DNA from: Prosthecobacter debontii
GTDB taxonomy: Bacteria > Verrucomicrobiota > Verrucomicrobiia > Verrucomicrobiales > Verrucomicrobiaceae
Direction of reading: 5' to 3'
DNA: 64,000 nucleotides
Assembly: GCA_945860295.1 (NCBI GenBank)
Contig: CAMAQH010000009.1
Location: forward strand, 1 to 64,000
Part shown: positions 1 through 18,295 of the stretch, piece after piece
Numbering within the stretch: the first letter of the stretch is position 1
Layout: each line of letters begins with the position of its first letter
Made by a program: the position numbers and the translations under genes
Notes under the pieces: generated by a model
What the model saw: only the letters and a program-made list of their open reading frames with translations
Databases searched by the model: none
What the model was told of the DNA's origin: nothing

Positions 1-3000
1 TGGTGGTGAGGCTGGCCGCAGTGTAGTTACCACCGAGGGTGGAACCGAGCATGACATTGGCTCCACCAAAGGCGGTGAGGTCGAGAGCCGTGCTGAAACC
101 AGCGGCATCGACGGCGAGGATACCGCCGAAGCTAGCACCGGTCGTGCCGGCGAAGGTGGTGTTCGCGGGAATCGCTCCGTTGTAGGCCAAAGCGAGAACG
201 CCGAGGCCTTCGCTGTTGGTGTTGACCGTGACCGTGGCAGCCCCTTGTACGTTCGCAGTGCTGGCAAGGCGAAGGATACCCGCCGAATTGACCGTGAAGT
301 TACCCGATCCGAACGGCGTGCCGCCGCTGGTGGAGGCGAGGATGCCTTGGTCCACGATGTAATTGCCGGTGCGGTTCGATCCGGTGCCGGCCACGAAGAG
401 CGCGCCGGTGCCAACTTTGGTCACATCCGTGGAAGTGGCACCCATGAGAGCGCCAGAGACCAGGGCATTGTTGGTGGTGAAGATCGTCGTGGCACCGGAC
501 CCGTTCAGGGTGAGCGCGCCGGCGATGTTGGTCTGCTGACCGCCACCGAAACCAACGGCCCTTGGGGTGGTCACCGTCACCGCACCGATCATGGAGTTGG
601 CCGCCAGCGCGTTGATGTAGGCGTCGCCGGTCACGTTGACGGCATTCTGGGTGAAGATGTTGTTGATGTTCTGAGCGTAAGCACCGCCGGCGAGGGTGAC
701 CGCCGGACCGGCGGTGTAGTTGGAGCCGCCCAGCGCATACTGGTTGCCTGCCGCCAAAGTGCCGCTGTTGACGGTCACGCCCACAGTGATGGTGGAGTTG
801 ACGCCATTCAGATCAAGGCGACCGAGGCCGGACTTGGTCAGGGTCGTGAGGCCCGCGATGTTGGCACCGAGCGCGAGGGTATTGTTCGGGCTTTCCACAT
901 TGATGGCTGACGCCGCTGTGGAGAACGTCACCACCCCATTGAGAGTGAGGTTGTTGGGGGAGGTACCCATGATCAGGTCGCCGCTGGCGGTGATGGCATT
1001 GATCACGGTGCGGTTGCCATTGACGGCCATCAGTTTGGTGCCGTTGGCCATGACGAGGGTGCCCAGACCCAACGGGCCAGCAGTGATGGTGCCGCCGACA
1101 GTGTTAGGAGTGCTGTCGGTGCCCAACAGGATCGAACCCGCCGAGAGGGTGACGCCAGTAGAGCCAATCGCACCAAAGGTGCTGGCAGCTGAAAGCAGGA
1201 GTCCACCGGTTCCATTCTTCAGAATTTGGTTGGTTGCCCCAGCACCGGTGATCGGAGCATAGATGTTGAGTGAGTTCGGGGACAGGCCGTTGGTGGTGAT
1301 GGTGCGGGTTGCACCTCCAAGGTCGAGCGTGCCTCCTGTCGTTGCAGCACCGATGGTCGGGGTGAGACCCAAATTGTCATTGGTCACCGTGATGTTGCTG
1401 TTGAGAGACAACACACCGCTGGTCACGATCGAGGGCGAGGCGTTGGTCACGACGACGCTGTTGTCTCCGCCAGCCGCATTCGCAGCCTGCGACATGGTGA
1501 ACTGGGTGGCACTGAGGATGCTCGTGATCATGCCACCAATGTTTCTGCCGCTACTGATGTTCATTCCAGACCACAGGCCAGCGGTAGAACTAACCGTGAC
1601 TGTGGCGCTTTGGTTGACCGAAGTGGAATTGGCGAGAGTCACCACAGCCAGGGGGACAGGATTGGTGCCACCGATGTTATTGAAGGTGATGCCACCGGAG
1701 ATCGTGTTGGCTCCGGAGTAGGACAGAGTGCCGGCGCCGTTGATGACGATGGCTGACGCAGCAGCGATCTGGCCCGCATTGGTGGCTCCCACGTTGGCAT
1801 TGTTGATGGTGAGCGCGCCGGGCACTTGAACGATGCCCGCTGTGCCGCCCAGGGTCAGGGTGCCTTGGTTGACGATGGTTCCGCCCCCGAACGTGTTGGC
1901 CACGGTGCCAGCCAAAGTCAGCACGCTGGGTCCCGATTTCACCAATGCTGTGCTGACTCCGGTGATGCGGCTGCTGATGGTGGCGGTGTTGTTGGCGTAA
2001 ACGAAGAGTTCGTTACCAGCACCTGCCGTGAGGTTACCACCCGTGATGACGCTGGCCAAACCGTTGAGGAGCACGCCGCCGGTATCGACCGTGAGTGTGT
2101 TCGCGGCGGTGAGGGTGATCGTCGAAGCGACGCTGACGCGGAGGGAGTTGATGTTGCGTGTGGTGACACCCGAGACGCTGGCCGCTACGGTGATATTATC
2201 AGCCGCAACACCTGCGGTGAGCAGGGTAGCCGTGCCTGTGGCCACGCCGGCGTAGTTGCCAAAGCCATTGGTGCCGAGTGCGCCGACGCCGCCCTGGTTG
2301 CCCGCCGGAGCCACATAGGTCGCGAAGTCAGTGCCAGCCACCGTAGCCCAACCACCGATGATGCCGTCGTCGAGAGCCGGCGCAACTCCATTGAGGGCAG
2401 TGAGGATCACCTGCGACGTGCCAACGCCATTCTGGCCAAGAGTGGTGCCGGTGAAGTTCAAAGTGGCACCGGCTCCGCCGCGCACCAGGTTGGAAATAGT
2501 CAGGGTGTTGGTCGCCACGCCGAGTGGAGTCACGTTGATGGTATTGATCCCGCCGGGGCTGGCACCCCCCGTAAGAGTGACGGTACTGGTCGAAGCACCG
2601 GTCTGAGCGCCCAGGTAGGACAAGGTGCCACCCGTCATGCTGATCGCCGTTGCCCCTGTGCGATTTACGCCCAGTTCGGTGGCGGTGTAGAGACCGGTGT
2701 CGTCCAGGATGAGGCCGCCGTGGTTGAGCGTGATGCTGGACGTGCCGGAAAGCCTGCCTTGATCACGCAAGGTGACCGTGCCGCCACGGATGATGGTCGC
2801 GCCTCCGTAGGTGTTGTTGCTGGTCAGAGTCGTGTTTGAAGTGGCCGCATTGACCGCACTGCGGGTGTAGCCAAGTCCGGCCCCTGCGAGGACGCCGGCA
2901 AATGTAGCGGCACCCGTGATGGAGGTGAGTGTGGCCGCGCCGGTGCTGGTTATAGTTCCGCCCGTACCCGCCAGGACGCTGATGCTGCTGAGGGTGCCGA

Positions 3001-6000
3001 TGGCCTGATTCTGGCCGTTGAGATCCAGCGTGCCACCATTGACCGCGATGTTTATGGCCTGCGGATTGCCTGCACCAGGAAGTAGCACCATGGTGTTAGC
3101 CGCACCGCTGTTGAGTGTCAGGGTGCCTTGGTTGATTGTGTAGTTCGAACTAGTGGTGATGAAGGACTGTCTGTTGAGACTGACGGCACCTGCACCGGTC
3201 TTGATGAAACCGTTGGAGCCGGTCAGGACGCTGTCGATGACCAAGGTGTTCACCGCATCTGTCTGGTGGATGATGAGCTGATTGCCACCTCCATTGACGA
3301 TACCGCCGCTGAAGGACTTGCCTGCACCGGTCGGAAGAACGAGAAGACCACCAGAGCCGGTGGTGAGAGTCGCGGTGTCGCCGATGCCGGTGAGGGTGGC
3401 GGTGTTGTTGAAGGTGAAGGTGTTCACCTGTTGGGTGCCGAAGGTCTGGTTGCCGGAGAAGGCGACGTTGGCGTTGGTGGCGATGGCGCGGTAGAGGCTG
3501 GTGGCCAGCTCAGCCGTGGTGAGGGGACGCAGACCGGTGGCTGCGGAGTAAGTGGCAAAGCCGGTGCCGGTGCCTGTAGCACTGCTGTCAGCGATGATGT
3601 CCGCACGGATGCTCATGGTGGTCGCGCCGTCCAGTCCGGCACCGCCCGTGAGCGAGCCGATGGTGGAGAAGTTGGGCAGCGGCAGGTTCAAGGATGGGCC
3701 GCCAACATAGAAGTTGGCGGTGCCAGCTCCGGGAGTGCCACCGAGATTGGAACCACGAAAGAGGGCACTACCGCCACCGGAAAGGCCTTGCATGATGCCG
3801 ACGCTAAAGGTGAGCGGCTGGGCGGCGTTCGCGGTGAGGGTGATGGTGCTTCCGCCGTTGTTGGTGTTCAACTGTCCGATCGGGCCGGTGCCGAGGGTTT
3901 CGATGGTCGGGGCACCGCTGTTGCCGATGATGTTGAAGTTACCGCCGTTCAACTGGAGGCCGTGGGTGGGGACGCCGCCGCCGAGGCGGTCGTTGCGATT
4001 GGCAGCCGAATTGTCGAGCGTCAGGCTACCGGTCGTATTGAGCGTGTATTGTGCAAAACCAACGGTGCCATTCGCTCCATTAAGTTTCAATTCGCCCTGG
4101 CTCACGGTAAGGGTGCCAAGAGCTGTGGAAGTCTGAGATCCGCCGGTCACGCGGGTATTGCTGTCGATCGTCATTACCCCAGTGCCGAGTTTCAGGAGAT
4201 TGAAGGTGTTGCTGTTCTGATTACCGCTGCCGAAGAGACCGGAGAAGGTGAAGTTGCTGTTGTTGAAGCCGGTGGAGAGAGTGGAGGCCGCCGCATTGTT
4301 GGTCACCAAGCCGGTGCCGGTGATGGACTTGGTGACGAAGTTGGCGTTGTTCAGGTCGAGCGTGGCGCCTGCGGCGAGAGCGACTTCAGAGAAGCGGGAG
4401 AAGCCGCTGGTCGCGCCGGGGCGGATGGTGCCGCCGCTGACCGTGGTCACTCCGGTGTAGGTGTTGGCGATGTTGGAGAGGGCGAGGATGCCGTTGCCAG
4501 TTTTTGTGAGGGCAAAGGCACCGGTGTAGGCTGCACCAAGGGTCGTGACCGTCCCGATGCTCTCGGTGTTGATGGTCGGTGTGCCGGAGAAGGAAATCAG
4601 CCCGTTGAGGGTGAGGTTGTTGCCACCGGTCAGCCCGTTGATGGTCAGCGTCTGGCTCGGATTGGTGACGCTGATCGCATTGAAGATGGTCGAGTTGGTG
4701 CCGGTGAGTTTCGTGGCGTCCGCATTGACGGTTAGGGTGCCAGTGCCGAGCGGGCCGTTGATGAACACACCCTGCTGGAGGGTGGTGGTGCCCAAGATCA
4801 GCGAACCGGCCGAAAGGGTGGTTCCGCCCGCGTAGTTGCTCAGACCGTTCATGGTGAGGGAGCCCGTGCCGGTCTTGACAATCGAACCGTTGGTGAGCAC
4901 ACCGGTGATGACAAGTCCAGCCGAGGAAATACCGGAAGTGTTGATTGTCGTGGCGGCACCATTGAGATTCAAACCACCGGTCATCGTCGGAGTCGTGCCG
5001 AAGCTGTCATTGACGGAGGTGATGTTGCCGCCCGAGAGAGTCAAGGCTCCGAAGTTCAGAGTGTTGCCCGTGGTGGTGGCAATAGCGTTGCTCGAAAGGG
5101 TGATGCCAGTGGTGCTGATCAGAGAGGCGATGGTCGTGCCAGCCGGGATACCTGCGCCAGTGACCTGCATTCCGACAGCTAGACCCGCGTTGGCAACAAT
5201 CACCGTGTTGCTTCCGGACACAGTCGCGGAACTCACCGCATTACCGGTGGCGTTGAGGGCTGGTGTGCCTGTGCCACCTTGGTTGTTAAAGTTGATCGTT
5301 CCAGCGGCCGTGTTGTTGCCGATGTAGGTGAGCGTGCCGCCGCCGTTGATAACGAGGTTGTTGTTCGCACCGATCTGGCCCGCATTGGTGGACATCGAGA
5401 CCGCAGCGTTGTTGATGGTCAGCGTCGCACCGCCGGGTGCGCCTGGGTTCGGAATGGTGACCACGCCTGGACCACCGCCGAGAGTCAGGGCGGAATTGAC
5501 GACCGTGCCGCCGGTGTAGGTATTGTTGGCCGCCAGAGACACCGTTCCCGCACCGGCGATCACCAATCGGGTGGAGGCTCCAACTGTGCCGCTGTCCTGG
5601 ATGATGGAGTTCACCGTGAGGGTGTTCTGGTTGTTCATGATGAACAACTCGCTCAGGGCGGCTACGGTGCCGCCGGAGGTCAGTCTGCCGCTGCCGACCG
5701 TCGCACCAATCGTGTTGGCGTTGTTGCCGCTCTTGAGCAAGCCGCCTGACACAAGGTTCAGTGTGTCAGTGCCAGCGGTGAAGGTGATGTTGGCATCACC
5801 GACGATGTTCAAACTGTTCAGGCTGTAGCCTGCCACGGTTGGGACGGCACCGGCGGCGGTGAGGCGGATGTTCTGCGTGGGTTGCGTGGCACCCGGCATT
5901 GTCGTGCCGGAGTAACCTGCGTAGCCAGCGTTGTTGAGCGGACCGACGCCCTTGGCGGCGGTCCAGGATGCGAACTCGGTGCCGTTGGTCGTGGCCCATC

Positions 6001-9000
6001 CACCAAGGATGTTGTTGGACGCTGTGAGGATCGCTGGGGTCAGAGCGACTCCATTCAGATTGGTCAGCAAGACCTGCGAGCTGCCGACATCCGGGAAGCC
6101 GAGATTGACGCCGGTGAAGTTCACACGCGAACCGTTGCCAGCCGCGCGGACCAAATCAGTGATCGTCAAGACCGCCCTACCTGTATTGCCTGGGGTAGCA
6201 GTGACCGTGCTGAAGCCGCCTTGAGTCGTAACGGTGCCAAGTGTTTCGGTGACCGTCTGACCCTGGACACCGTTGAGGGTGATCGTGCCGCCACGGGTGC
6301 TGATGGCGTTGGTGTCGGCCACGCGATTGGCGAGGTTGGCGAGGGCTGAGTTGTCGATGTTCAGGATGCCGAATTCCAGATTCAATCCAGTGGTGCTGGC
6401 CAGAGTGGCGCTGTCACGAAGCTGGAGTGTGCCGCCGCGGACTGTGGTGGTGCCGCTGTAGGTCTGCGGACTGGTGAGGGTCGTTGTTGTGTTACCAGCG
6501 CGCGTGAGATTGAGGTTACCTGCAATTACGCCACCAAAGGTACCTGTGCCCGTGGTAGTCAGGGTCGCTGCGGTGCCGCTGGTATTGGTGACGGTGCCGC
6601 CAGTGCTAGGCAGCGGGTTATTGTTGGTCAGCACCCCAACGAGCTGGTTCTTGCCGAATAGATCAAACGTGCCTGCATTGACCGTGAGTGCCGGAGCGGT
6701 CGGGACCGTGGTGGTGGGTACCACGGCGATGGTGTTGTCATTGCCGCTGTTGAGCTTCAGGATGCCGTTATTGACGGTGGTGGTGCCGGTGTAATACTGC
6801 TGCTTGGTGATGTCCAAGGTGCCGTTGCCAGCCTTGACGATGCCGCCTGTAGTGGTCGGATTGAACGATGAGTTCAAGGTCAGGGTGCTGCCATTGAGCG
6901 TGTGAATGTAACCTTGAGTCACGGCAAGCTGGCCACCTGTAATGGTCGCATTGGCTGTGGTGATAAGTCCGCCTGAGGCAGCGAAATTGAGGATGCTGCC
7001 CGCGTTAAATGCCGTCAGGCCACCACCGGCATTGATGGTGAGGGAGTTGAAGGCATTGGTGGTGAAGGTCTGGTTGCTGGAGAGGGCAACGTTGGAGTTG
7101 CTGAGCGAGTTGGCGAGCGTGCTCGACATTTCTGTCGAGGGATTGAGGAGGCGGAAGCCGACGCCTGGGAAGTAAGTCACAAAGCCTGCTCCGTTACCAG
7201 TAGCGGAGGTGTCACCGATGATGTCAGCACGGACACTCATGTTGTTGAAGCCGGGAAGACCAGCACCACCTGCGATGTTAGGAGTAGATGAATAAACATT
7301 GGCCACGCCATTGCCCGGAGTTGATCCAAGGCTGGTCCCGCGAAGGATCAGGGTCATACCGGAGTTCGAAGCACCAGCAGCAGTAGTCGCCATGTTCAGG
7401 ATGGTGGACTGGCCTGCATTAGGAGCCAGTGTCACGAATCCCTGACCGGAACCAAGGTTCAATTGGTTGATGGATTCAAAGGTCGCCGCACCGGAATTAC
7501 CAATGATCTTGAACTCACCGCCTGCGACTTGGACGTTCTTGAGCAGGCCACCCAAGCGGAAATTTTCGTTGGTGGTGCTGTTGTCGAGAACGAGCGAGCC
7601 GGTCTGATTCACCACATAAGTTCCGAAAGCCGAGCTGGCGGTGCCGCTGTAGGTGACCGCGCCGCCGTTGACGGTGAAGGTGCCGATGGAGGTGCTGTCA
7701 CCGCCAGTCAGACCGAAGGAGCCAGAACCGATCTTCTGAACGTTGACGTTGGGGAGGGTGACGTCGTTGTAACCGAGGAAGCGACCGTTGAAGCTGGTGG
7801 CGGCGTTGTTCAAGCCGAAGGTCAGCGTTCCAGCGGCTCCGTTGTTGGTGATGTCACCCGAGCCGGACAACTGGCTGAGAGTCTGGCTCAAGGCGTTCAG
7901 ATCCAGGCGGCTGGTGCCAGCCATGGTGAAGGTCGAGGCATACGGGATGGTATTGGCCACTCCGAGGAAGAGCGTGCCAGCGCTGAGAGTGGTGGCTCCA
8001 GTATAGTAGTTGAAACCGTCCAGACGGAGACCGGAGTTGCCAAGCTTGGTGATGCCGCCGGTGGTGCCGATCATGGTCGGCAGGACGAGGCCCAGCGGGG
8101 AATCGCTGGTGCCGTTCACGGTGATGTTGTGATTGGTGGCGCCGATGTTGATCAGGCCGCTGGTGCTGACCGAGAAGCTCGGGGCGGAGCTCGGGGTATT
8201 GGTCGTCGCGACGATGTTGCCGGTGAGGGTGAGCGTGCTGCCGAAGGTGACGGTGGTGTTCGTGGCAGCAGCCGTGGCGGGCTGTGACATGGTGACCACC
8301 GATCCCGCGATCGCGACGATGGTCGTGCCAGCGGGGATGTTCGTGCCGGTGATCGGCATGCCGACCACGAGGCCATCCGCGGCATTGGTTCCTGCAATGG
8401 TCAATGTGGTGCTATTAGCGACGGTCGTCGTAGTATTGGCGGTGACACTGGCGGTGCGGACGAGGGAACCGGCGGCGTTGCCGTCGTGGGTGAAGGTGAA
8501 GTCGTTGAAGCTGGTATTTCCCCAGAGGTTCAGAACGCCGCCGCCGTTGATAGTGAGGTTAGCCCCCGTGGCGATCTTGCCGCTCTGCCCGATGATGTAG
8601 GCGAGGGTGGCGTTGTTGATGGTGATGCCACCTGCGGAAGGCAGAACCGCCTGGGCATTGGTGCCGGCGAGGGTGGTGGTGCCGCCGTTGATCACGGTGC
8701 CGCCGGTGTGGGTGTTCGGGGCGGTCAGGGTGAAGGTGCCGCCGTTGACTCCCGAAGTGAGGATGAGCCGAGTATTGCCACCGCCGGAGTTGTCCACAAT
8801 GCGAGAATTCACGGTCAGGGCGTTCTGGTCGTTGGTGATGAAGAGTTCCTTCACCCCGGCAGTGAGGGCACCGGCACTGATGCGCCCGCTATCAGCGGCG
8901 GCACCGATGGTGTTGACGTTGTTGGCACTCTTGAGCAAGCCGCCCGAAACGAGGTTCACTGAGTCGGTGGCGAGGGTAAAAGCAAGGTTGAAGTTGCCGA

Positions 9001-12000
9001 CGATATTGAGACTATTCAATTGGTAACCCGCCACGGTCGGAATCGTTCCAGCAGCAACGATACGGATGTTTTGCGTCGGCTGGGTGCCGGCTGGGATAGT
9101 TGTCCCACTATAACCAGGGAAGCCAGTCTGATTGAGTGTACCAATACCCGTGCCCGGGAGGTAGCTGGCAAATTCGTTGCCGTTCACAATGGCCCAACCG
9201 CCGATGAGATTGCTGGCGAGTGTAAGTGCCGTACCAAACTTGATCTCGGCATTGCCTGCATTGAGGGAAATACCCAAGTTGGAACCACCAAAGTTAACCA
9301 CGGAATCGGTGTTCCGGGTGAGGCTGGTGAAGTTCAGAAGGGCAGATCCACCTGAACCGACGGTGGAGTTCACAAAGGACGTGCCACCATTAAGAGTTAG
9401 AGCACCGAGGTTCTGGACGGAATCCGTGCCGTTACCGCTGAAGTAGTTCAAGCTGGCACCGGTCAGACCGACCGGAATGACACCAAGGCGAGTTACGTTA
9501 TCAACTAGGCCGCGGTTATCGATATTCAGGGTGGTGCCGAGCGAAGCCGCCACTGAGGTGGTATTGGCCAGGGTGCCGCTGTCGATGAGGGTCAGGACGC
9601 CGCCACGAATGATCGTGGTGCCGGTGAAGGTGTTGGCATTGGTGAAGGTGGCGGTGTTGTTGCCGGTCTTCACGAGGTCGATGTTGCCATTGATGGAACC
9701 GCTGAAGCCCGCGCCATTGGCGGGAGTAGCTGTGCCGCCAGTGACGGTGAATACGGCCTGGGCACCTGTATTGGTGATCGTGCCACCAGTGCCAGCGAGA
9801 TTGTTGGCGCTGCCGAGCGTGGAAACGGACTGATTGTTGCCATTGAGGTTCACTGTGCCCGAGTTGACCTGAAGGATATTGGCGACGCCGATTGCGCTGA
9901 CGAACAGGGTGTTGGCTCCGCCGTTTAAGGTCAGGATGCCGTTGTTCACCGTGGTTGCTCCCGTATAGAGCTGCGCACGATTAAGGTTCATCGTGCCCGT
10001 GCCGCCTTTCGCGACGCCAGCCGTGCCAGTGAAAGCAGCACTGACAGCTAGGTCACCGTTGGCGTAAACAAAACCAGGGGTTCCACCGAAAGCGATGAGA
10101 CCGCCGTTAAGTCCTCGGTTTCCTGTCTGGGCGAGGATACCACCGCTCGTGACTGTCAGCGTGGTGTTCTGCGGAAGTGGACCAGCGGCAAGGGTATTGC
10201 CATTGCCTGTCAAGGTCAGGCTGTTGATGGTGGTGGCAGCGATGAATGCTCCGCCCTGTGGGAGAGAAAGCCCAACGTTACCAGTGTTGACCGGTGCGGT
10301 CACAGTCGTCATAAATGGCGCATACTCCGCCGCAGTCAGTGCGCGGAAGCCGGGGCCTCCAACGGTATTCGCGCCATCCGCGCCAATGTAAGTAGCAAAG
10401 GAGGTACCTGCACCGGTCAACGAGGTATCCACGAGGATGTCAGGGCGGATGGACATGTTGACTGTGCCAGCGGCTGTTGCGCCACCGATCTGAGCTGGTG
10501 CCGTGCCAGTCAGAGTAAAGTTAGCAACTCCGGCTCCGGCTGTGGAGCCAAGGTTCGGACCGCGCAGCAAGAGTGAGCTACCGGTGGTGACGGCACCAAG
10601 AACGCCAGCATTGAGAATAGTTCCCTGGCCTGCCGTTGGCGTGAGATTGATGATGCTGTTACCAGAGGCCATCGTGACCTGACCGCCTTGAGTCGTGAGG
10701 GCTGAGGCTGCAGGGACTGTGGCGTTCTGACTCAAGGTGAGTGTGGCCTGATTGATTGCTATGATGGTTGTATTGGCAGCGATACCAGCACCCGAGATAC
10801 CCATGCCGACGACCAAGTTATCGACATTGGTAACAAGGAGCGCCGTCGATGCGGACGAAGCAACACCCGAGGTCTTTGGAATGACGATGCCGAGCGACTC
10901 CGTGGTGGAGGCAGCGCTGTTGCCTCGGATGGTAAGTGTGCCGCCGTTCAGGGTGAGGCCGACGCTGTCGGTGGCGGTGTCAACTTGCCCGCCGAGGCGG
11001 CTGTTGACGTTGGTGCCGGAATTGTCGAGGACGAGGGTGCCACCATCAAGGACGTTGTTGGTGCCGAAGAGGCTGTTGGCCGTGCCGCTGTAGGTGAGGG
11101 TGCCCTGGGCGGCGATGAGAGTGCCGGTGCTGGTGCTGGTGCCGCCAAGAGTGAGATTGCCGCTGCCGATCTTGGTGACATTCAGCGTGTTCGGCGCTGC
11201 CGCGCTGAAACGGGCGAAGGAACCGGCGAAGGTGGAGTTGGTGTTGTCAAAGCCAACCAACAAGGCACCCGCCGTGCTGGCTGCGTTGGTGACGACACCG
11301 GTGCCGGTGATGGAACCGAAGAGCGCGCTGGCGCCGTTCAGATTGAGGTAGGAAGTGCCGCTGGCGAGGTCGAGGCGGGAATTGCGCGCACCGGCGAAGG
11401 CGCCCGCCGGGTTGGCGCTGATGGCGATGGTGCCCGCACTGACGGTGGTGTTGCCGGTGTAGGGGTTCTGGGCCTGGAGACCGAGGACGCCCGCGCCGCT
11501 CTTCGTGAGCCCGGCGGTGCCGATCATGGCGGCCTGGACGTTCACAGCGGGCTGGAGGGCCGAAACATCCTGACCATTGAAGAGGGTGGAAGCGACGTTG
11601 AAGGTGCGGTTGCTGGCCCCGAGATCGACTCGTCCGATGATCTGCGCGATGGAACCCGGGTTGCTGGAGGTAACGGTGACACCGCCATTCAAGGTGAGTG
11701 TACCGCCCAAGGCATTGCCACCTCCAATAACGGAACCGCCGCCAGCGGAGTTGACGGTCGGGTTTGTAGCACCCCCCCCGTTGTTATTGAACTCTAGGCC
11801 CGCGAGAGTGTTGGCACCAGTGAGATTCAGGACTCCGGGACCATTGATCACCACGGTATTGCCAGCCGCGATCTGTCCACCATTGGCATTCATGTTGACG
11901 GTACCGCCGTTGATGACGAGGCCAGTCGCCGGGATCGCTGCGAGAGGAACCGTGATCACGCCAACACCGCCATCAAGGCGTAGCGGGCCCTGGTTGACAA

Positions 12001-15000
12001 TGGTTCCGCCAGTGTAGGTGTTATTGGCGGTCAGGGCGAGGGTAGCGGCACCGGACTTCACAAGGGAAACGGTCGATGTGCCCAAACCAGTGTTGGCGAT
12101 GACCGAGTTGATCGAGAACGTGTTTTGATTGTGATAAACAATCAATTCCGTGTTGCCGGCGACAGCCGAGCCGCCAGCGGTAAGGACACCGCGTAGCGCG
12201 GTGGTGCCGATGTTGGTCGCGTTATTGTCATTCGACCGTAGCAAACCGCCCAATGCGAGGTTTAGCGTTTCCGTGCCGAGCGTGAAGGTGATATTGCGTG
12301 TGGCAGCACCCGAAAGGCGCAGGCTGCCGATGGTTGTGGCTGCGCCGATGACCACATCCCCGCCTGTATTGGAAATGTTGGTCGGGAGATTATTTCCGCT
12401 GGCGAGGGCTGCCGCATAGGTCGGGAAACCGGCGACTCCGAGAGCACCGAGGCCGTTGCCTTCAGCATAGGCGGCGTAGTCGCCGCTGTTAATGATCAAC
12501 CACGGAGCGAATGAAGCCGTGTTGGTCTGACCGGTGATGAGAACGCGCGGGGCATTTCCGATCAGCCCGAGGCTGGTGCCAGTCACGTTCAAGGTGGCAC
12601 CGGAGGCGGCAGTGCGAGCAAGGCTGGTCAGGGTGAGGTCAGCAGAGTTAATGCCCGTGCCGCCAGTGGCGACGGTGATTGTGGAGGCACCCTGGTCTGC
12701 GTTCACGGCACCAAGGGTTTCCGTCGAGGCGGTCTGCGCGCGCCCGATGTAGCTGATCGTGCCGCCGCGCAGGTCAATGGCCGCTGCATTATTGATGCGG
12801 CCCTGCACATCACTGATGTCGATGGTGCCGACGTTATTGTCGAGAGTCAACGTGCCGTAGTTGATGTCGAGGTTGGTGGTGCCGGAGAAACGGGCGGAAT
12901 CGCGCAGCAGCGTGGTGCCGCCGGAGATGAGGGTGTCACCCGTGGTGTTGCTGTCGGAGAAGAGCGTCAACGTGTTCTGACCCGTCCTCTGGAAGGCGAC
13001 CGAGCCGTTGATGCTGCCGGAGAAGTTTCTGGCCGTGTTGTCGAGGTTCTGGACAAAGGTCGAACCGGCAGAGCCGATGATGGTGCCGCCACCGTTAAAA
13101 GTGGAGCCGCCATCGAACAGACGGGAGGTCTGGGCAGTGCCATTCAAGTCCAGGGTGCCACCGATGAGGCTGAGGAAGTTGTTGAAGTAGAGCGTGTTGT
13201 TGCCACCAGCGAGTTTGAGGGTGCCCTGGTTGATTTCGGTCTGACCGCCCGCGACGTTGCCGGCCACGCCAGTGATGACGCTGGCCGTCGGTGCAAGGGT
13301 CAGGATGCCGTCACCCGCCTTGATGAAGCCGATGTTGCCGCCACCCTGGCTTTGACCACCTTGGAGCAGGCTGGTGACGGTGGTGTTATCCGTGGCAAGA
13401 CCGACGGTGTGGAAAATCAACGGGACATTGCCTGCGACGTAGGATAGCACACCGCCGCTGATGCCGGTATTGCCAGCCTTGGTGAGGATACCACCGCTCT
13501 GGATGGTGAGGAGGTCGAGCGACTTCATGGTCACACCACCGCCGCTTTCAAGCGTGAGGGAGTTGAGCCTGCGGGTGTCGATGGCGGCTGGGGCCGTGGT
13601 GAGGCGGACGTTGGTGTCCACGGTGAGGGCAGCGGCCATTTCTGTGCCGGTATTGAGGGGGCGGAGAATGGCGGTGATGTTGGCGGCGGCAGCGACGGTA
13701 TCGCCAGTGGCGAAGGAAGTGCCGGTGCCGGTGTTGGTCGGATCAACCAAGGCCCAGGGGATGATGGACTTGTTGGGCGTGGCGGTCGCGCCGGTCTGAC
13801 CGACCACTACAAAACCGGTCGTGGTGGCGGCGATGGTGGCGACATTCGGGCCAGCGACAGTGCCGAGGCCGAGGCCGCGGAAGAGGGCGGTGGCACCGGT
13901 GGGGGCAGTCGCGGCTGCGGCATTGTTCGCCGTCGAAGGATTGTTCGGAGCACCGAAGACCAAGCCAGCGGTCTGACCGGCCCCCGGAGTGACCGTGATG
14001 ATGCTCTGGCCGCGGGCGAAGGTCGGCGCGGCGAAGGTCTGGGTGGTCGTCCCGGCAGCGCTACCAATGACATTGAGATTGCCGCCACTTAGTGTGATGA
14101 GGCGGGTGGTGCCGAGACGGTTGTTGGTGTTGGTGCCGCTGTTGTCGAGGGTCAGGGTAGCACCGGGATTGACGAGAATCGGAATGGCAGCGCCGCCCAG
14201 AATCGTGCCCAAGCCATTCAAACTCATGGTGCCCTGGAGCACGGTGATGTCCGCCGTGGGAACCACCGCGTTGGCCGTGGTGATGTTCAGTGTGCCGGTG
14301 CCGTATTTTCTGATGCCGACCCATTGGTTCACCGTGGCAGTGGCCGCCGTCATGTTGCTGTTCAGGTTGATGACGCTTGATCCCTGGGCATTAAACGCAA
14401 AGGTGCGCGCCGTGACGGTGTTGTTGTTGATGGTGCCGTCGATGTTCAGGATGCCAGCATTCGCACCGATCGCCGCGTCAAAAGCCGCCGTGATCACACC
14501 CGTCGTGGTGTTGGTCCCTGAAACACTCTGCAACTGGCCACCGAAGTTGATGCCGCCAAGGAAGACGTTGTTGGCACCCTGGAGGTTGATGGCATTGCCA
14601 AAGGAGGCAGATGTGGAACTGAACAACTGCAGGGCCGAACCGGTGACTGCAGCCGGTGAGACCGTGATCGCACTCGTGCCGAGGGCCGTGGCGTTGCTCA
14701 GGCGGATGGCACCGGCATTGATGGTGACCGCGCCGGCATAAGCGCCATTGGTAACTGTGATGTCCATGATGCCGTTATCAGCTTTCACGAAACCGTTGGC
14801 ACCGCCGAATGCGGAGTTCAGGGTCAACGTTTTGCCCTGCACGACTTCGATGACGTTATTGGCGGCGGTGGCGTTGCTCAGGGTGATGGTGCGCGTGGCA
14901 GCAAGGTTGATGTTATCCGCCGCACGGAAGGTCGCGACGGCTCCGGCACCCGCGGCGTTGAGGTTGATGCCGTTGGCCGTATCGCCCAAAGCGCCATCGC

Positions 15001-17038
15001 TGGTCGCGGCAAGAACACCACGAACCACATTCATGGTGCCGACGAAATTATTGGTCGCATTCGATAGCAAAAGAGTGCCGCCGATGCCGCCGTCAGCCGC
15101 CACGCCGCCGCCAGTGCCTAGATTCAATCCGCTCGCACCCGTGACCTGACCGCTGAGTTCGAGGCCCGCGACGATGTTAGACGTGTTGGCGGTGATTGGG
15201 TTGAGGACGATGAAGGTCGGGGTGGCCGCGCTCAGAGTGGTGGTGCCAGTGAACTCAAGGCCGTAACCATTCAGGTTGTTTGTGGTCAGGCTGTTGGCAC
15301 CGATGGAGAGGGTATTGAGCTGGATTGTCTTATTAAGAGCGGTAGCCCCCGGAAAACCAGCCACACCGGTGCGATCCACGGAAATGGTGCTGTTGCCGGT
15401 GACGGTCACATCATCGCCAAACACAATGTCCTGCTTATTGCCGTAGCCGGAGCCGTCATCGCGGAGATCTAAGGAACCACCACTGAGAGTGATAGCATTG
15501 GCAGCGCCTGTATTCATCGCCGCTCTGGAAACCAACAGGTTACCACCGGAGACACTGACTCCACCAGTAAAGGTATTGGTAGCACCGAGAATCCAGCGGC
15601 CAATGCCGGTTTTGGCAATCGAAGTGGCGCCACCCGCACCATCGCCAATGATCGCAAGCAGGGTGTTGTTACCATTGCTGGCTCCCGCCAGCGTGAGTGT
15701 GCGCGCGCCAGAGCCGGACAGCCCCATGGTCCCCACATTGGAGAAGGTCAGCGCCGCATTGGCCGCACCCGAGGCGTCAAGCGTACCGCCGTTGTTAGTC
15801 AGGGTGAAGAGGCGATCCGTCGAGATGACTGCCCCAGTATATTGAAGGCCACCGCCATCAAGCACGAGGTTGGTGTCCGCATTGGCAGAAGAGCCGATGC
15901 CGCTATTAACTCCTCCAGCAGCAAGAGAGTTCGTGGAGAAAGTACCGCCACTGAGGGTGGTGACGCCGTTGTAGCTGCTGGCGTTGATGTTGGTCAACTG
16001 GCCTGCGCCGGTCTTGGTAACAGCATTGGCACCCGAGATGGCTCCGGTGGTGAGGAGTGCATTAGATTGCACGTCGAAAGTTGCCCCACCAGTAAGAGTG
16101 ACCGCACCGACGGTGACGCCTCCAGTGCCCGTGGTAGCATTGGGACCGCGTGCTATAGAGAGGGTATTTGCACCAATGGAGAGGGCACCGAGGGTGTGCG
16201 TGACGCCAGGACTTGCAGCAGTCACACGATCAGAGGTGATCGTGGCGTTACCGCTCACTGTGGTGCTGCGATTGAAGGCGAGAGCCGTGTCGTTGGCCAA
16301 CTGTAGATCGCCCCCTGAAAGAGCCAGCGCTCCAGCGCCAAGCGCAGAGGCTGTGGTGGTGGCGCGAAGGACACCAGAACTGACCGTGGTCGTTCCGCTA
16401 TAAGTGTTAATACCCGAGAGTGTCACTCTACCAGCGCCCGACTGAGTCAAGCCACCAGCGCCAGCACCGATGATGCCAGTGATCGAGGTATTGCCCGCGC
16501 CATTAAGCGTCAGAAGGTTGGCTCCTATGTTGACTCCTCCGCTGATGGTCAGCGTCTTAGTGGTCGCCGTGGTCCAGTTTTGCGCCCCGCCCAAAATCGT
16601 GTTGGCAGATATAGTCGCTGAGTCGTTAGCATTGATGCCGCCATTGATGGTGAGAGAATTGCCACCACCGGCGATGGTGTAATTGCCCGAACCTGCCGCA
16701 TTGAAAGTCAGGATGCCTGCCGTGATGGGGGAACCAAGGGTGATCGTCCCTGCTGCGCCATCGCCAAATCCGAAAATGGCATCGTCGGGGGTAGCATTGT
16801 TCCAGTTCACAATTCCCGCGTTGTCCCAGTTTCCCGCCCCATTAATCCAAGTACCTCCGCCGTCGCGGACCCCCAGTGCACCGCTGGAATCCCATGTCAG
16901 AGTGGCACCTTTGACCTGAACACTCCAGAGGGCAAACTGCACCAGGAGAATGGCGGAGATCGACGTGTTCCACGCGGGGCGGCGCAGGCAACGGATCAAG
17001 CGCTCGGGGAGTGAGACGGTTTGGTTGGGAGTGTTCAT
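1..17038 (-). CDS. Giant autotransporter-associated beta-strand-repeat protein (N-terminal part, runs off the left edge)
   Basis: One reading frame stays open from the ATG at 17038 down to base 2, at least 5,679 codons, with the C-terminus outside the window. The first ~45 residues form a long signal peptide: an Arg-rich n-region, a hydrophobic stretch near residues 27-40, and a likely cleavage after VKGA. The rest is Gly/Thr/Asn/Ser-rich and almost free of Cys, built from short repeats such as 'TGANTYTGGTTVNAGTL'-type units typical of passenger-associated transport repeats (TIGR02601/PF12951). Larger cassettes recur: type A with RADI..D.S.TG.G..FATY near residues 1106, 2209, 3281 and 4489, and type B with GWA..NG.EFASY near 1519, 2619, 3686 and 4899. 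This is known for secreted surface adhesin-like proteins; function and any C-terminal beta-barrel or sorting domain cannot be seen. No Shine-Dalgarno precedes the ATG, where the leader is pyrimidine-rich. Confidence 0.93.
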   Translation of the reverse strand, partial: MNTPNQTVSLPERLIRCLRRPAWNTSISAILLVQFALWSVQVKGATLTWDSSGALGVRDGGGTWINGAGNWDNAGIVNWNNATPDDAIFGFGDGAAGTITLGSPITAGILTFNAAGSGNYTIAGGGNSLTINGGINANDSATISANTILGGAQNWTTATTKTLTISGGVNIGANLLTLNGAGNTSITGIIGAGAGGLTQSGAGRVTLSGINTYSGTTTVSSGVLRATTTASALGAGALALSGGDLQLANDTALAFNRSTTVSGNATITSDRVTAASPGVTHTLGALSIGANTLSIARGPNATTGTGGVTVGAVTLTGGATFDVQSNALLTTGAISGANAVTKTGAGQLTNINASSYNGVTTLSGGTFSTNSLAAGGVNSGIGSSANADTNLVLDGGGLQYTGAVISTDRLFTLTNNGGTLDASGAANAALTFSNVGTMGLSGSGARTLTLAGASNGNNTLLAIIGDGAGGATSIAKTGIGRWILGATNTFTGGVSVSGGNLLVSRAAMNTGAANAITLSGGSLDLRDDGSGYGNKQDIVFGDDVTVTGNSTISVDRTGVAGFPGATALNKTIQLNTLSIGANSLTTNNLNGYGLEFTGTTTLSAATPTFIVLNPITANTSNIVAGLELSGQVTGASGLNLGTGGGVAADGGIGGTLLLSNATNNFVGTMNVVRGVLAATSDGALGDTANGINLNAAGAGAVATFRAADNINLAATRTITLSNATAANNVIEVVQGKTLTLNSAFGGANGFVKADNGIMDITVTNGAYAGAVTINAGAIRLSNATALGTSAITVSPAAVTGSALQLFSSTSASFGNAINLQGANNVFLGGINFGGQLQSVSGTNTTTGVITAAFDAAIGANAGILNIDGTINNNTVTARTFAFNAQGSSVINLNSNMTAATATVNQWVGIRKYGTGTLNITTANAVVPTADITVLQGTMSLNGLGTILGGAAIPILVNPGATLTLDNSGTNTNNRLGTTRLITLSGGNLNVIGSAAGTTTQTFAAPTFARGQSIITVTPGAGQTAGLVFGAPNNPSTANNAAAATAPTGATALFRGLGLGTVAGPNVATIAATTTGFVVVGQTGATATPNKSIIPWALVDPTNTGTGTSFATGDTVAAAANITAILRPLNTGTEMAAALTVDTNVRLTTAPAAIDTRRLNSLTLESGGGVTMKSLDLLTIQSGGILTKAGNTGISGGVLSYVAGNVPLIFHTVGLATDNTTVTSLLQGGQSQGGGNIGFIKAGDGILTLAPTASVITGVAGNVAGGQTEINQGTLKLAGGNNTLYFNNFLSLIGGTLDLNGTAQTSRLFDGGSTFNGGGTIIGSAGSTFVQNLDNTARNFSGSINGSVAFQRTGQNTLTLFSDSNTTGDTLISGGTTLLRDSARFSGTTNLDINYGTLTLDNNVGTIDISDVQGRINNAAAIDLRGGTISYIGRAQTASTETLGAVNADQGASTITVATGGTGINSADLTLTSLARTAASGATLNVTGTSLGLIGNAPRVLITGQTNTASFAPWLIINSGDYAAYAEGNGLGALGVAGFPTYAAALASGNNLPTNISNTGGDVVIGAATTIGSLRLSGAATRNITFTLGTETLNLALGGLLRSNDNNATNIGTTALRGVLTAGGSAVAGNTELIVYHNQNTFSINSVIANTGLGTSTVSLVKSGAATLALTANNTYTGGTIVNQGPLRLDGGVGVITVPLAAIPATGLVINGGTVNMNANGGQIAAGNTVVINGPGVLNLTGANTLAGLEFNNNGGGATNPTVNSAGGGSVIGGGNALGGTLTLNGGVTVTSSNPGSIAQIIGRVDLGASNRTFNVASTLFNGQDVSALQPAVNVQAAMIGTAGLTKSGAGVLGLQAQNPYTGNTTVSAGTIAISANPAGAFAGARNSRLDLASGTSYLNLNGASALFGSITGTGVVTNAASTAGALLVGFDNTNSTFAGSFARFSAAAPNTLNVTKIGSGNLTLGGTSTSTGTLIAAQGTLTYSGTANSLFGTNNVLDGGTLVLDNSGTNVNSRLGGQVDTATDSVGLTLNGGTLTIRGNSAASTTESLGIVIPKTSGVASSASTALLVTNVDNLVVGMGISGAGIAANTTIIAINQATLTLSQNATVPAASALTTQGGQVTMASGNSIINLTPTAGQGTILNAGVLGAVTTGSSLLLRGPNLGSTAGAGVANFTLTGTAPAQIGGATAAGTVNMSIRPDILVDTSLTGAGTSFATYIGADGANTVGGPGFRALTAAEYAPFMTTVTAPVNTGNVGLSLPQGGAFIAATTINSLTLTGNGNTLAAGPLPQNTTLTVTSGGILAQTGNRGLNGGLIAFGGTPGFVYANGDLAVSAAFTGTAGVAKGGTGTMNLNRAQLYTGATTVNNGILTLNGGANTLFVSAIGVANILQVNSGTVNLNGNNQSVSTLGSANNLAGTGGTITNTGAQAVFTVTGGTATPANGAGFSGSINGNIDLVKTGNNTATFTNANTFTGTTIIRGGVLTLIDSGTLANTTSVAASLGTTLNIDNRGLVDNVTRLGVIPVGLTGASLNYFSGNGTDSVQNLGALTLNGGTSFVNSTVGSGGSALLNFTSLTRNTDSVVNFGGSNLGISLNAGNAEIKFGTALTLASNLIGGWAIVNGNEFASYLPGTGIGTLNQTGFPGYSGTTIPAGTQPTQNIRIVAAGTIPTVAGYQLNSLNIVGNFNLAFTLATDSVNLVSGGLLKSANNVNTIGAAADSGRISAGALTAGVKELFITNDQNALTVNSRIVDNSGGGNTRLILTSGVNGGTFTLTAPNTHTGGTVINGGTTTLAGTNAQAVLPSAGGITINNATLAYIIGQSGKIATGANLTINGGGVLNLWGNTSFNDFTFTHDGNAAGSLVRTASVTANTTTTVANSTTLTIAGTNAADGLVVGMPITGTNIPAGTTIVAIAGSVVTMSQPATAAATNTTVTFGSTLTLTGNIVATTNTPSSAPSFSVSTSGLINIGATNHNITVNGTSDSPLGLVLPTMIGTTGGITKLGNSGLRLDGFNYYTGATTLSAGTLFLGVANTIPYASTFTMAGTSRLDLNALSQTLSQLSGSGDITNNGAAGTLTFGLNNAATSFNGRFLGYNDVTLPNVNVQKIGSGSFGLTGGDSTSIGTFTVNGGAVTYSGTASSAFGTYVVNQTGSLVLDNSTTNENFRLGGLLKNVQVAGGEFKIIGNSGAATFESINQLNLGSGQGFVTLAPNAGQSTILNMATTAAGASNSGMTLILRGTSLGSTPGNGVANVYSSTPNIAGGAGLPGFNNMSVRADIIGDTSATGNGAGFVTYFPGVGFRLLNPSTEMSSTLANSLSNSNVALSSNQTFTTNAFNSLTINAGGGLTAFNAGSILNFAASGGLITTANATITGGQLAVTQGYIHTLNGSTLTLNSSFNPTTTGGIVKAGNGTLDITKQQYYTGTTTVNNGILKLNSGNDNTIAVVPTTTVPTAPALTVNAGTFDLFGKNQLVGVLTNNNPLPSTGGTVTNTSGTAATLTTTGTGTFGGVIAGNLNLTRAGNTTTTLTSPQTYSGTTTVRGGTLQLRDSATLASTTGLNLEFGILNIDNSALANLANRVADTNAISTRGGTITLNGVQGQTVTETLGTVTTQGGFSTVTATPGNTGRAVLTITDLVRAAGNGSRVNFTGVNLGFPDVGSSQVLLTNLNGVALTPAILTASNNILGGWATTNGTEFASWTAAKGVGPLNNAGYAGYSGTTMPGATQPTQNIRLTAAGAVPTVAGYSLNSLNIVGDANITFTAGTDTLNLVSGGLLKSGNNANTIGATVGSGRLTSGGTVAALSELFIMNNQNTLTVNSIIQDSGTVGASTRLVIAGAGTVSLAANNTYTGGTVVNSALTLGGGPGVVTIPNPGAPGGATLTINNAAVSMSTNAGQIGANNNLVINGGGTLTYIGNNTAAGTINFNNQGGTGTPALNATGNAVSSATVSGSNTVIVANAGLAVGMQVTGAGIPAGTTIASLISTTGITLSSNAIATTTGNTLNFGALTLSGGNITSVNDSFGTTPTMTGGLNLNGAATTINTSGISSAGLVITGVLTNGSIVKTGTGSLTMNGLSNYAGGTTLSAGSLILGTTTLQQGVFINGPLGTGTLTVNADATKLTGTNSTIFNAISVTNPSQTLTINGLTGGNNLTLNGLISFSGTPTINTESIGTVTTLGAAYTGAFALTKTGNGILALSNIANTYTGVTTVSGGTIRPGATSGFSRFSEVALAAGATLDLNNANFVTKSITGTGLVTNNAAASTLSTGFNNSNFTFSGLFGSGNQNSNTFNLLKLGTGVMTIDSNTRVTGGSQTSTALGTLTVSQGELKLNGANGTVGFAQYTLNTTGSLTLDNSAANRNDRLGGGVPTHGLQLNGGNFNIIGNSGAPTIETLGTGPIGQLNTNNGGSTITLTANAAQPLTFSVGIMQGLSGGGSALFRGSNLGGTPGAGTANFYVGGPSLNLPLPNFSTIGSLTGGAGLDGATTMSIRADIIADSSATGTGTGFATYSAATGLRPLTTAELATSLYRAIATNANVAFSGNQTFGTQQVNTFTFNNTATLTGIGDTATLTTGSGGLLVLPTGAGKSFSGGIVNGGGNQLIIHQTDAVNTLVIDSVLTGSNGFIKTGAGAVSLNRQSFITTSSNYTINQGTLTLNSGAANTMVLLPGAGNPQAINIAVNGGTLDLNGQNQAIGTLSSISVLAGTGGTITSTGAATLTSITGAATFAGVLAGAGLGYTRSAVNAATSNTTLTSNNTYGGATIIRGGTVTLRDQGRLSGTSSITLNHGGLILDDTGLYTATELGVNRTGATAISMTGGTLSYLGAQTGASTSTVTLTGGASPGGINTINVTPLGVATNTLTISNLVRGGAGATLNFTGTTLGQNGVGTSQVILTALNGVAPALDDGIIGGWATVAGTDFATYVAPAGNQGGVGALGTNGFGNYAGVATGTATLLTAGVAADNITVAASVSGVTTRNINSLRVSVASTITLTAANTLTVDTGGVLLNGLASVITGGNLTAGAGNELFVYANNTATISSRITGVSTALVKSGPSVLTLAGTVANTFGGGTIVNQGTLTLGGTAGIVQVPGALTINNANVGATNAGQIAAASAIVINGAGTLSYSGANTISGGITFNNIGGTNPVPLAVVTLANSTSVNQSATVTVSSTAGLWSGMNISSGRNIGGMITSILSATQFTMSQAANAAGGDNSVVVTNASPSIVTSGVLSLNSNITVTNDNLGLTPTIGAATTGGTLDLGGATRTITTNGLSPNSLNIYAPITGAGATNQILKNGTGGLLLSAASTFGAIGSTGVTLSAGSILLGTDSTPNTVGGTITAGPLGLGTLVMANGTKLMAVNGNRTVINAITASGDLIMGTSPNNLTLNGVVTFSTAASAINVESPNNTLALGANIAGLTTLTKSGLGRLDLNGVNSTITVGVTVNSGTLAAGNQYALGGSNYTAGPAVTLAGGAYAQNINNIFTQNAVNVTGDAYINALAANSMIGAVTVTTPRAVGFGGGQQTNIAGALTLNGSGATTIFTTNNALVSGALMGATSTDVTKVGTGALFVAGTGSNRTGNYIVDQGILASTSGGTPFGSGNFTVNSAGILRLASTANVQGAATVTVNTNSEGLGVLALAYNGAIPANTTFAGTTGASFGGILAVDAAGFSTALDLTAFGGANVMLGSTLGGNYTAASLTT

Positions 17039-17177
17039 AAAAGTTTAAGGGACGAGTTAAAAAGAGGCAGCAAAAGACGAAAAAGAGGTCAGGCGAGACG
17101 AGGCAAGGTGCTAAAAAGAATAAAAACCGATTTGATCGAAAAATAGACAAAGCAAGAAATCACCGAACCACGAGTGC

Positions 17178-17193
17178 TGGCACGATGCTTGCT
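17178..17193 (+). promoter_or_regulatory. Sigma-54 (RpoN) type -24/-12 promoter
   Basis: The sequence TGGCACG-ATGC-TTGCT matches the sigma-54 consensus TGGCACG-N4-TTGCW at every defined position with the correct spacing. It lies in an AT-rich gene-free region and points rightwards, away from the giant repeat protein. Transcription would start near 17204. No plus-strand gene lies downstream before 18809, so the product would be a non-coding RNA or an antisense transcript. The match is seen directly; activity is inferred. Confidence 0.6.
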
Positions 17194-17235
17194 TTGGAAA
17201 TTTAGAAATTGGTTAGACACGCTGTAAAAGCTCGG

Positions 17236-17266
17236 TTTTCCAATGCCTAACGGAAGGCATGGAAAA
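17236..17266. terminator. Strong A/T-flanked hairpin, candidate terminator of a short RNA
   Basis: A 12-bp stem with one bulged A pairs 17236-17248 with 17255-17266; the loop is AACGGA. The outer four pairs are T-A, so the hairpin is nearly symmetric and could act on either strand. On the plus strand it is followed by TAATTT, a weak U-tract. It lies about 30 bases after the predicted start of the sigma-54 promoter, giving a candidate RNA of about 65-70 nt. Confidence 0.45.
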
Positions 17267-17621
17267 TAATTTGGTTTGAACTATAAATGAAAAGTGTGAC
17301 TCTGCTGAGTGTGACTTAGGACGGTTGGCTAGAATATAAAAGGTAACAATTTTCATGTAATCACAGGGAGCCTACATCCGCCAAGCCTTTTATTTTCATT
17401 TTTAGCGCAGAATAGCTATCACTTAACACACTGCGATTATCTGCATTTCAGTAATTTAGGCGGCATCTGCATGTCTTATTAGATTATGTGAAAAGTCACT
17501 GGAATGAGTGCTTTAAGAAATGAAAATTGGGGGTGACGGGACAGACGATTTCCAGCCCGGAAAACTGGGGATTTTCATCAGATGGCTGTGGGGTTTGGGG
17601 TTTGAAAATCTATTCTACCAC
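17267..17621. other. AT-rich intergenic stretch without a recognised gene
   Basis: This stretch is markedly richer in A and T than its surroundings and has no open frame with coding character on either strand. It separates the giant repeat-protein gene from the RNA-binding protein gene, both on the minus strand, so it probably contains the promoter of the giant gene. No clear sigma-70 boxes were assigned. Confidence 0.5.
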
Positions 17622-17655
17622 AAAAAAGCCCGCTCTCCGGCGTGGAGGCGGGCTT
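17622..17655 (-). terminator. Rho-independent terminator of the RRM gene
   Basis: On the minus strand AAGCCCGC (17655-17648) pairs with GCGGGCTT (17633-17626) around a 14-base loop and is followed by a run of T. It begins 22 bases after the stop codon of the RNA-binding protein gene, which fixes its role. Confidence 0.85.
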
Positions 17656-17677
17656 AATAAAAATCTTTACCGAAGAA

Positions 17678-18295
17678 CTAGGAGTCCGATTCGTCGTTGT
17701 GATCAGAGCGGTCATCACTGCCGATAGGCTTGGCGCCGCTGAGCTGAAGAGGGCGCCCCATGAAGTCTTTGTTGCTTAGTTCGGCAACGGCGCGGCGGGC
17801 TTCTTCGACTGAACCCATGGTGACAAAGGCGAAACCTTTGGAGCGCTGGGTGCGGTTGTTCACCACAACTTCGGCATTGCGGACGCTACCCAGACCACTG
17901 AAGAGCTCGAAGAGATCGCTCTCGGAGGCATCGTAGGAGAGATTGCCGACATAAAGACGATCTGTGGAGATGCTCGCTGGATCGACGGGCGTGGAGTCAC
18001 GACGCGGGCGCGGCTCACGTGGTGGACGGGAGGAATCCGAGCGATCTGAGCGAGGGCCACGATCAGAGGATGTGGAAGAGCCAGAACGCTGAGCTTTGGG
18101 TAGCGTGGCAGGCTTGCCGAGCAGACCAAAGGTGATGGCGCTCAAGAATTTCTGAAAGCCGGTCGGTTTGGGAACGCCGCCGCGTGGGGTGGAGGTGCGG
18201 CGGTCGGAGAAGCCTCCGCTTTGGCCACCCTGAGCGCCATTAGGACGGCGGGTGCGACGGCGGCGGGTGCCTTGTTGAGTTGAATTGTCTGACAT
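17678..18295 (-). CDS. RRM-type RNA-binding protein with basic, disordered N-terminus
   Basis: This 205-residue protein binds single-stranded RNA through one C-terminal RNA recognition motif. The RNP2 box LYVGNL is at residues 114-119 and RNP1 KGFAFVTM at 153-160, with the aromatic positions intact. The first ~110 residues are low complexity and rich in Arg, Ser, Pro and Gly, including an RRRRTRR cluster at 11-17; they look disordered. The last ~15 residues are acidic. Single-RRM proteins of this kind in bacteria are usually about 80-120 residues, so the long tail is unusual. It is preceded by more than 500 bases without a gene and followed by a clear terminator, so it is probably monocistronic. 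The exact RNA targets are unknown. Confidence 0.9.
   Translation of the reverse strand: MSDNSTQQGTRRRRTRRPNGAQGGQSGGFSDRRTSTPRGGVPKPTGFQKFLSAITFGLLGKPATLPKAQRSGSSTSSDRGPRSDRSDSSRPPREPRPRRDSTPVDPASISTDRLYVGNLSYDASESDLFELFSGLGSVRNAEVVVNNRTQRSKGFAFVTMGSVEEARRAVAELSNKDFMGRPLQLSGAKPIGSDDRSDHNDESDS

Follow-up and report, generated by a model that had tools for sequence, protein, structure and literature searches.

A candidate sigma-54-dependent small RNA unit divergent to giant repeat-protein genes in a verrucomicrobial genus

Results

A sigma-54 promoter and a hairpin beside a giant repeat-protein gene

The window, by which we mean the whole stretch of 64,000 nucleotides that was analysed, belongs to a genus that is probably Prosthecobacter. 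It begins inside a giant beta-strand-repeat gene on the minus strand, and beyond the 5′ end of that gene lies a group of short elements followed by a gene for an RNA-binding protein:

2–17038, minus strand: divergent giant beta-strand-repeat gene, with its 5′ end at 17038; the contig edge truncates it at the 3′ end
17178–17193, plus strand: sigma-54 (-24/-12) promoter TGGCACGATGCTTGCT, an exact match, conserved in six loci
17203–17204, plus strand: predicted transcription start, placed by its spacing to the -12 GC
17208–17219, plus strand: conserved 5′ segment ATTGGTTAGACA of the predicted RNA; TTGGTTAG is invariant in 6/6 loci, 30–31 bases from the promoter start
17235–17267, plus strand: predicted hairpin with loop block CCTAACGGAAGG at 17246–17257, found by folding and in the same register in five loci
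17357–17365, no strand assigned: conserved site GTAATCACA, 178–180 bases from the promoter start in 5/6 loci (GTTATCATA at 178 in locus L002)
17678–18295, minus strand: gene for an RRM RNA-binding protein, next on the other side, with a counterpart at the same place in genome G003

The sequence TGGCACG-N4-TTGCT at 17178–17193 is a full -24/-12 match on the plus strand, and the first-pass annotation was right to call it perfect and directed away from the giant gene. Its further statement that no plus-strand gene follows for 1.6 kb holds for open reading frames of at least 100 aa, the next of which starts at 18809; the minus-strand RRM gene sits inside this gap. The predicted start, near 17203, is 12 bases past the G of the -12 GC. 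A 12-bp hairpin had been proposed 30–60 bases past that start, and one folds there, spanning approximately +33 to +65, with 12 Watson-Crick pairs, one G-U pair, one bulged A and a loop of 6 (−18.5 kcal/mol).

Because the motif is about as frequent as its control and the hairpin z-score is modest, neither element by itself is much above chance; their conservation in relatives is. The 4.68 Mb genome has 8 exact matches to TGGCAC-N5-TTGCW vs. 7 to the reversed control; seven of the eight lie inside open reading frames of at least 100 aa, and only 17178–17193 lies outside. When one mismatch was allowed, the window contained 6 matches vs. 3.9 expected, and 24 of 100 shuffles reached 6. The plus-strand fold had z = −1.98 (8/200 shuffles as good), and the minus strand of the same stretch gave −16.8 kcal/mol with z = −3.25 (0/200 shuffles as good).

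The arrangement is kept at six loci in five genomes

Searched at the DNA level, 48 genus genomes gave four strong matches in addition to the window, two of them in G045 and one each in G003 and G044; two weak matches of 18–20 bases (L007 and L009) were left out. A covariance model built from five loci refound those five and added one in G041 (L013, E = 0.002 over the 48 genomes), with none in the other 43 under strict filters that may lose weak matches. The promoter-hairpin arrangement, whose conservation in relatives had been named as a check on the first-pass reading, is thus kept in 5 of the 48 genomes, the window's own among them (G000, G003, G041, G044 and, twice, G045), at six loci. The order of this unit is promoter, TTGGTTAG 30–31 bases on, hairpin, and GTAATCACA or a variant 178–180 bases on. 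In 189 sampled genomes of the order, the covariance model at E 0.01 matched only four genus genomes already known to carry it, and none outside the genus. A pattern of promoter plus TGGTTAG recovered the six unit loci and one further site, and the control matched nowhere in the 48 genomes; the further site, in G007, has a different spacing and is excluded from the unit count. Scanning the named collection for a pattern recovered four unit loci, one in a Prosthecobacter debontii MAG and three in two Verrucomicrobiaceae MAGs.

Between the window and the four close loci, 20-column windows of the flanks are mostly 20–65% identical, vs. 75–91% at the promoter, TTGGTTAG and the loop. In the alignment of unit loci, 13 of 16 promoter columns are invariant over six rows (14 of 16 over three lineages), as are 8 of 8 columns of TTGGTTAG over six rows, vs. 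84 of 366 columns outside the promoter (108 of 366 over three lineages), a set that takes in TTGGTTAG and the hairpin. The Fisher p for this contrast is ~3e-6, which is indicative only, the rows being related. The -24 GG and -12 GC, ten bases apart, are retained at 6/6 loci. At the sixth, L013, CTGC replaces TTGC at -12 and leaves GG and GC intact; this substitution, the model E of 0.002 and a different hairpin, predicted at about the same place, count against the reading as a noncoding RNA unit.

In the five other loci the hairpin is in register, with 96.4% of cells paired. Covariation is weak: both sides change in 2 of 11 pairs, which 113 of 500 shuffles reach, and the pair changes do not discriminate the plus from the minus strand. 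That some hairpin is kept can fairly be said; the particular stem is not proven. RNAalifold also proposed a structure of ~190 nt closed by TTGG/CCAAG, which we do not claim, its covariation term being unfavourable (+2.04). The GTTAG/CTAAC complementarity between the 5′ segment and the loop shows no variation in the five closely aligned loci. GTTAGAC and GCCTAAC resemble integron-type core sites (GTTRRRY / RYYYAAC); by eye they stand in the wrong order for attC, and we rejected this reading.

The distance from promoter start to GTAATCACA is 178, 178, 178, 179 or 180 in five loci, unlike that from promoter to gene start, which varies by 15 (136–151). When three of these 330-base regions were shuffled, 1 of 500 trials yielded a 9-mer present in all three and 17 of 500 such an 8-mer, vs. 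one 9-mer and three 8-mers observed. Given this near-fixed distance and these shuffle counts, the GTAATCACA site probably belongs to the sigma-54 unit, where it may be a candidate activator or enhancer site or a (3′) part of the RNA.

The 3′ end of the predicted RNA

No intrinsic terminator was called at the hairpin, and no U-tract follows it, so that the RNA length of 65–70 nt suggested in the first-pass annotation is unsupported; a further conserved element, which reaches ~+163 at fixed distance, also speaks against it. The terminator scan gave a single weak 5-pair site at 17556–17569, with 1.9 expected. The 3′ end may be of the Rho type or arise by processing. Rfam had no match to the unit at the gathering score, where only a tRNA elsewhere was found; with the limit relaxed to an E of 1, nothing but a sub-threshold Trp_leader match appeared, on the minus strand at 17620–17680.

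RpoN and the occurrence of its consensus in the genus

RpoN is present in the genome of the window as a 471 aa frame with the RpoN box ARRTVAKYR. The genome has 11 activator-domain matches, two with GSFTGA and nine without a GAFTGA-type loop. Among the nine is an NtrC-like response regulator (L029, 1036–2403); since no GAFTGA-type loop was found in it, it is probably unable to activate sigma-54. A PrsR-type regulator was sought with TIGR02915 and rejected: the best of the three activators scanned reached 405.5 bits vs. a cut-off of 502.6, and no PEP-CTERM-specific activator was identified among the three.

In the 48 genus genomes, TGGCACG-N4-TTGCW occurs 88 times vs. 69 for the control, a mild excess. 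Six of the 88, the window's included, could be the unit, and five are. We read the surroundings of 32 non-unit sites (L085, L086, L088–L113, L020, L026, the second site in L114, and L115; L116 and L117 are repeats of L101 and L108). Eight of the 32 were intergenic, defined as outside any open reading frame of at least 120 aa in six frames, a definition that misjudges some sites. Five of these eight adjoin ammonium transporters, three in sense orientation 53–93 nt upstream of amt genes and two divergently; another intergenic site lies 64 nt upstream of an Hsp20 gene, and the last two have an ambiguous setting. One study places glnK-amtB among predicted sigma-54 operons, 3.6-fold up (PMC3844500). 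The presence of the consensus before amt genes is indirect evidence that the RpoN of this genus reads it.

One such site, at 1501–1516 of L101 (plus strand, G042), is conserved; its counterpart in L110 (G002) is on the minus strand. The site faces away from the gene of an ammonium transporter, towards DNA that is partly conserved and has no evident common gene, and is a candidate for a second divergent RpoN RNA.

Pairing with possible targets

The first-pass annotation had suggested that the RNA might regulate the divergent gene. Base pairing with the giant-gene leader, taken as the 140 nt that precede the start codon and the 90 nt that follow it, was not supported: predicted pairing was within the range of shuffles in 5 of 6 loci, and in L013 15 of 300 shuffles did as well. 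Perfect 10-base complements TGTCTAACCA outside the unit numbered 2 in G000, 6 in G003 and 7 in G044, vs. 2, 3 and 10 for the reversed control, and none of the perfect sites of G000 was common to G003 or G044. Two orthologous regions of G003 and G044 (L080/L084 and L082/L069) each contain a perfect 10-base complement of the RNA 5′ segment. No match to Hfq was found in the genome.

The neighbouring giant genes

At all six loci the unit lies 136–151 bp from the start codon of a repeat gene and is oriented away from it. Since every copy found stands at the front of such a gene, we rejected a repeat or mobile element as the source of the copies. The open frame of the giant gene has 5681 codons in the window, where the contig edge cuts it and the protein has at least 5679 aa, and 4478, 8110 and 4541 codons in others; contig edges cut two frames early (866 codons on contig C96 of G045 and at least 972 in G041). 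Four of the six giant genes match beta-strand-repeat families (window, G044, G041 and the C96 gene), and the other two were assigned from frame length and a common signal peptide. The G044 relative ends in a PEP-CTERM sorting domain; the end of the window's own gene is beyond the contig edge.

A search with the giant-gene front end gave 19 matches, of which five have the unit, six are strong matches without it (E 3e-29 to 9e-18) and eight are weak (E over 1e-4) and were set aside; the G041 giant gene has another signal peptide and falls outside the 19. Since six strong relatives lack the unit and the covariance model matched nothing in 43 genus genomes, it does not generally accompany such genes.

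In G044 and G045, giant genes have the same signal peptide and the same first stretch of the mature protein (ETWTQTGAGPFTWTTAANW); L040 has the unit upstream, and L054/L056 have quite different upstream DNA. L006 and L008 have both front end and unit in common, and their mature parts differ. Front ends and passengers of the giant genes thus seem to be shuffled.

Discussion

We propose that 17178–17365 is a small, sigma-54-dependent transcription unit for a noncoding RNA, and we give this reading a probability of roughly 0.55. That the RNA is transcribed, and its start, length, activator and way of acting, are all inferred from sequence.

The conserved elements could instead be DNA control circuitry for the giant gene. 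A sigma-54 polymerase parked at the promoter, or firing divergently, would alter access or supercoiling at the giant-gene promoter; the dyad and GTAATCACA would be protein sites, and the RNA a by-product. The short and narrowly varying distance from unit to repeat-gene start codon at all six loci is consistent with this, as is some conservation upstream of the promoter too, at 17120–17150. Elsewhere, a PEP-CTERM gene is under RpoN control, there in sense orientation (PMC9850573), which also favours this reading. However, TTGGTTAG (6/6 loci) and the hairpin loop (5/6), both within the predicted transcript, are about as conserved as the promoter, the promoter is directed away from the giant gene, and GTAATCACA holds its distance to the sigma-54 promoter rather than to the gene start. 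We regard this alternative as unlikely.

The hairpin might also act on the minus strand: the giant mRNA would then start beyond 17270 and contain the hairpin in its long leader, with the sigma-54 RNA as antisense partner and the loops making first contact. The stronger minus-strand fold (z = −3.25, 0/200 shuffles) points this way, the pair changes fit either strand, and two sigma-70-like sites lie on the minus strand at 17361–17333 and 17228–17199, with 0.8 expected in the 2 kb scanned. By eye, however, neither of these sites is at the same place in relatives, and a conserved giant-gene promoter was not identified, which leaves such a leader doubtful.

That the promoter look-alike and the hairpin are chance features, retained by recent common ancestry, seems very improbable. 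The genomic motif count near its control (8 vs. 7), the modest hairpin z of −1.98 and the closeness to one another of the four loci other than the window and L013 would all suit it. Against it stand the identity of promoter, TTGGTTAG and loop windows relative to the flanks, and the distant L013, which retains TGGCACGATG, the -12 GC and TTGGTTAG amid poorly alignable flanks. A short peptide can be dismissed almost outright: a 22-codon frame ATGGATGATTGG...TAA is open in L002, L005, L006 and L008, but with 0 synonymous and 1–6 nonsynonymous codon differences per pair, and, by eye, the frame is broken in the window (no start codon, an in-frame TAA) and absent from L013. In the open reading frame lists, read by eye, no longer plus-strand frame was common to the loci, and the predicted transcript bears no sign of a conserved protein.

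If the unit does make a sigma-54-dependent RNA, sigma-54 RNA polymerase would dock at TGGCACGATGCTTGCT and wait there until an NtrC-type enhancer-binding protein, possibly bound at the phased GTAATCACA site, opened the promoter upon some starvation or surface signal. The RNA would run from ~17203, with a conserved start AUUGGUUAGACA and a hairpin displaying CCUAACGGAAGG, and would most likely work by base pairing through these two segments, like other sigma-54 small RNAs. The RNA unit would be inherited together with one kind of giant repeat-protein gene. A bolder idea is that giant repeat genes carry the module along and exchange it among themselves. A conserved front end made up of promoter, RNA and signal peptide would then stand before different passengers, and an RpoN signal would set, through an RNA made in the opposite direction, which giant surface protein the cell shows; we think this unlikely.

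If transcribed, the RNA would connect giant surface-type proteins of Verrucomicrobiota with control by RpoN; the unit supplies an exact start site, strand and promoter that can be tested. The open-licence PMC literature yielded no paper joining Prosthecobacter with RpoN, or PEP-CTERM with small RNA in Verrucomicrobia; by title, the papers it returned for Prosthecobacter with small RNA and for sigma-54 with small RNA and Verrucomicrobia concern other subjects.

Known small RNAs offer several comparisons. NrsZ, CrcZ and Qrr are NtrC- or RpoN-driven small RNAs, intergenic and made from activator-dependent -24/-12 promoters. The present unit resembles them in having a -24/-12 promoter that feeds a (here predicted) intergenic noncoding RNA. 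It differs in belonging to another phylum, with homology not shown, and in that no terminator or Hfq was found. GlmY and GlmZ of enterobacteria are small RNAs with sigma-54 promoters that serve the building of the cell envelope (PMC3844500, PMC3162934); the likeness lies in a small RNA on a sigma-54 promoter, here a candidate known from its sequence, whereas there the target and activator are known and here the unit has no Rfam match. In pepA of Aquincola tertiaricarbonis, an RpoN-dependent PEP-CTERM gene, a sigma-54 promoter of the form TGGCAC / CTGCTT is connected with a surface protein of the PEP-CTERM type (PMC9850573). That promoter drives the PEP-CTERM gene itself, whereas ours points away from the repeat gene. 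As a sigma-54 small RNA the unit would thus be ordinary in kind and new as a member, a clade-restricted candidate.
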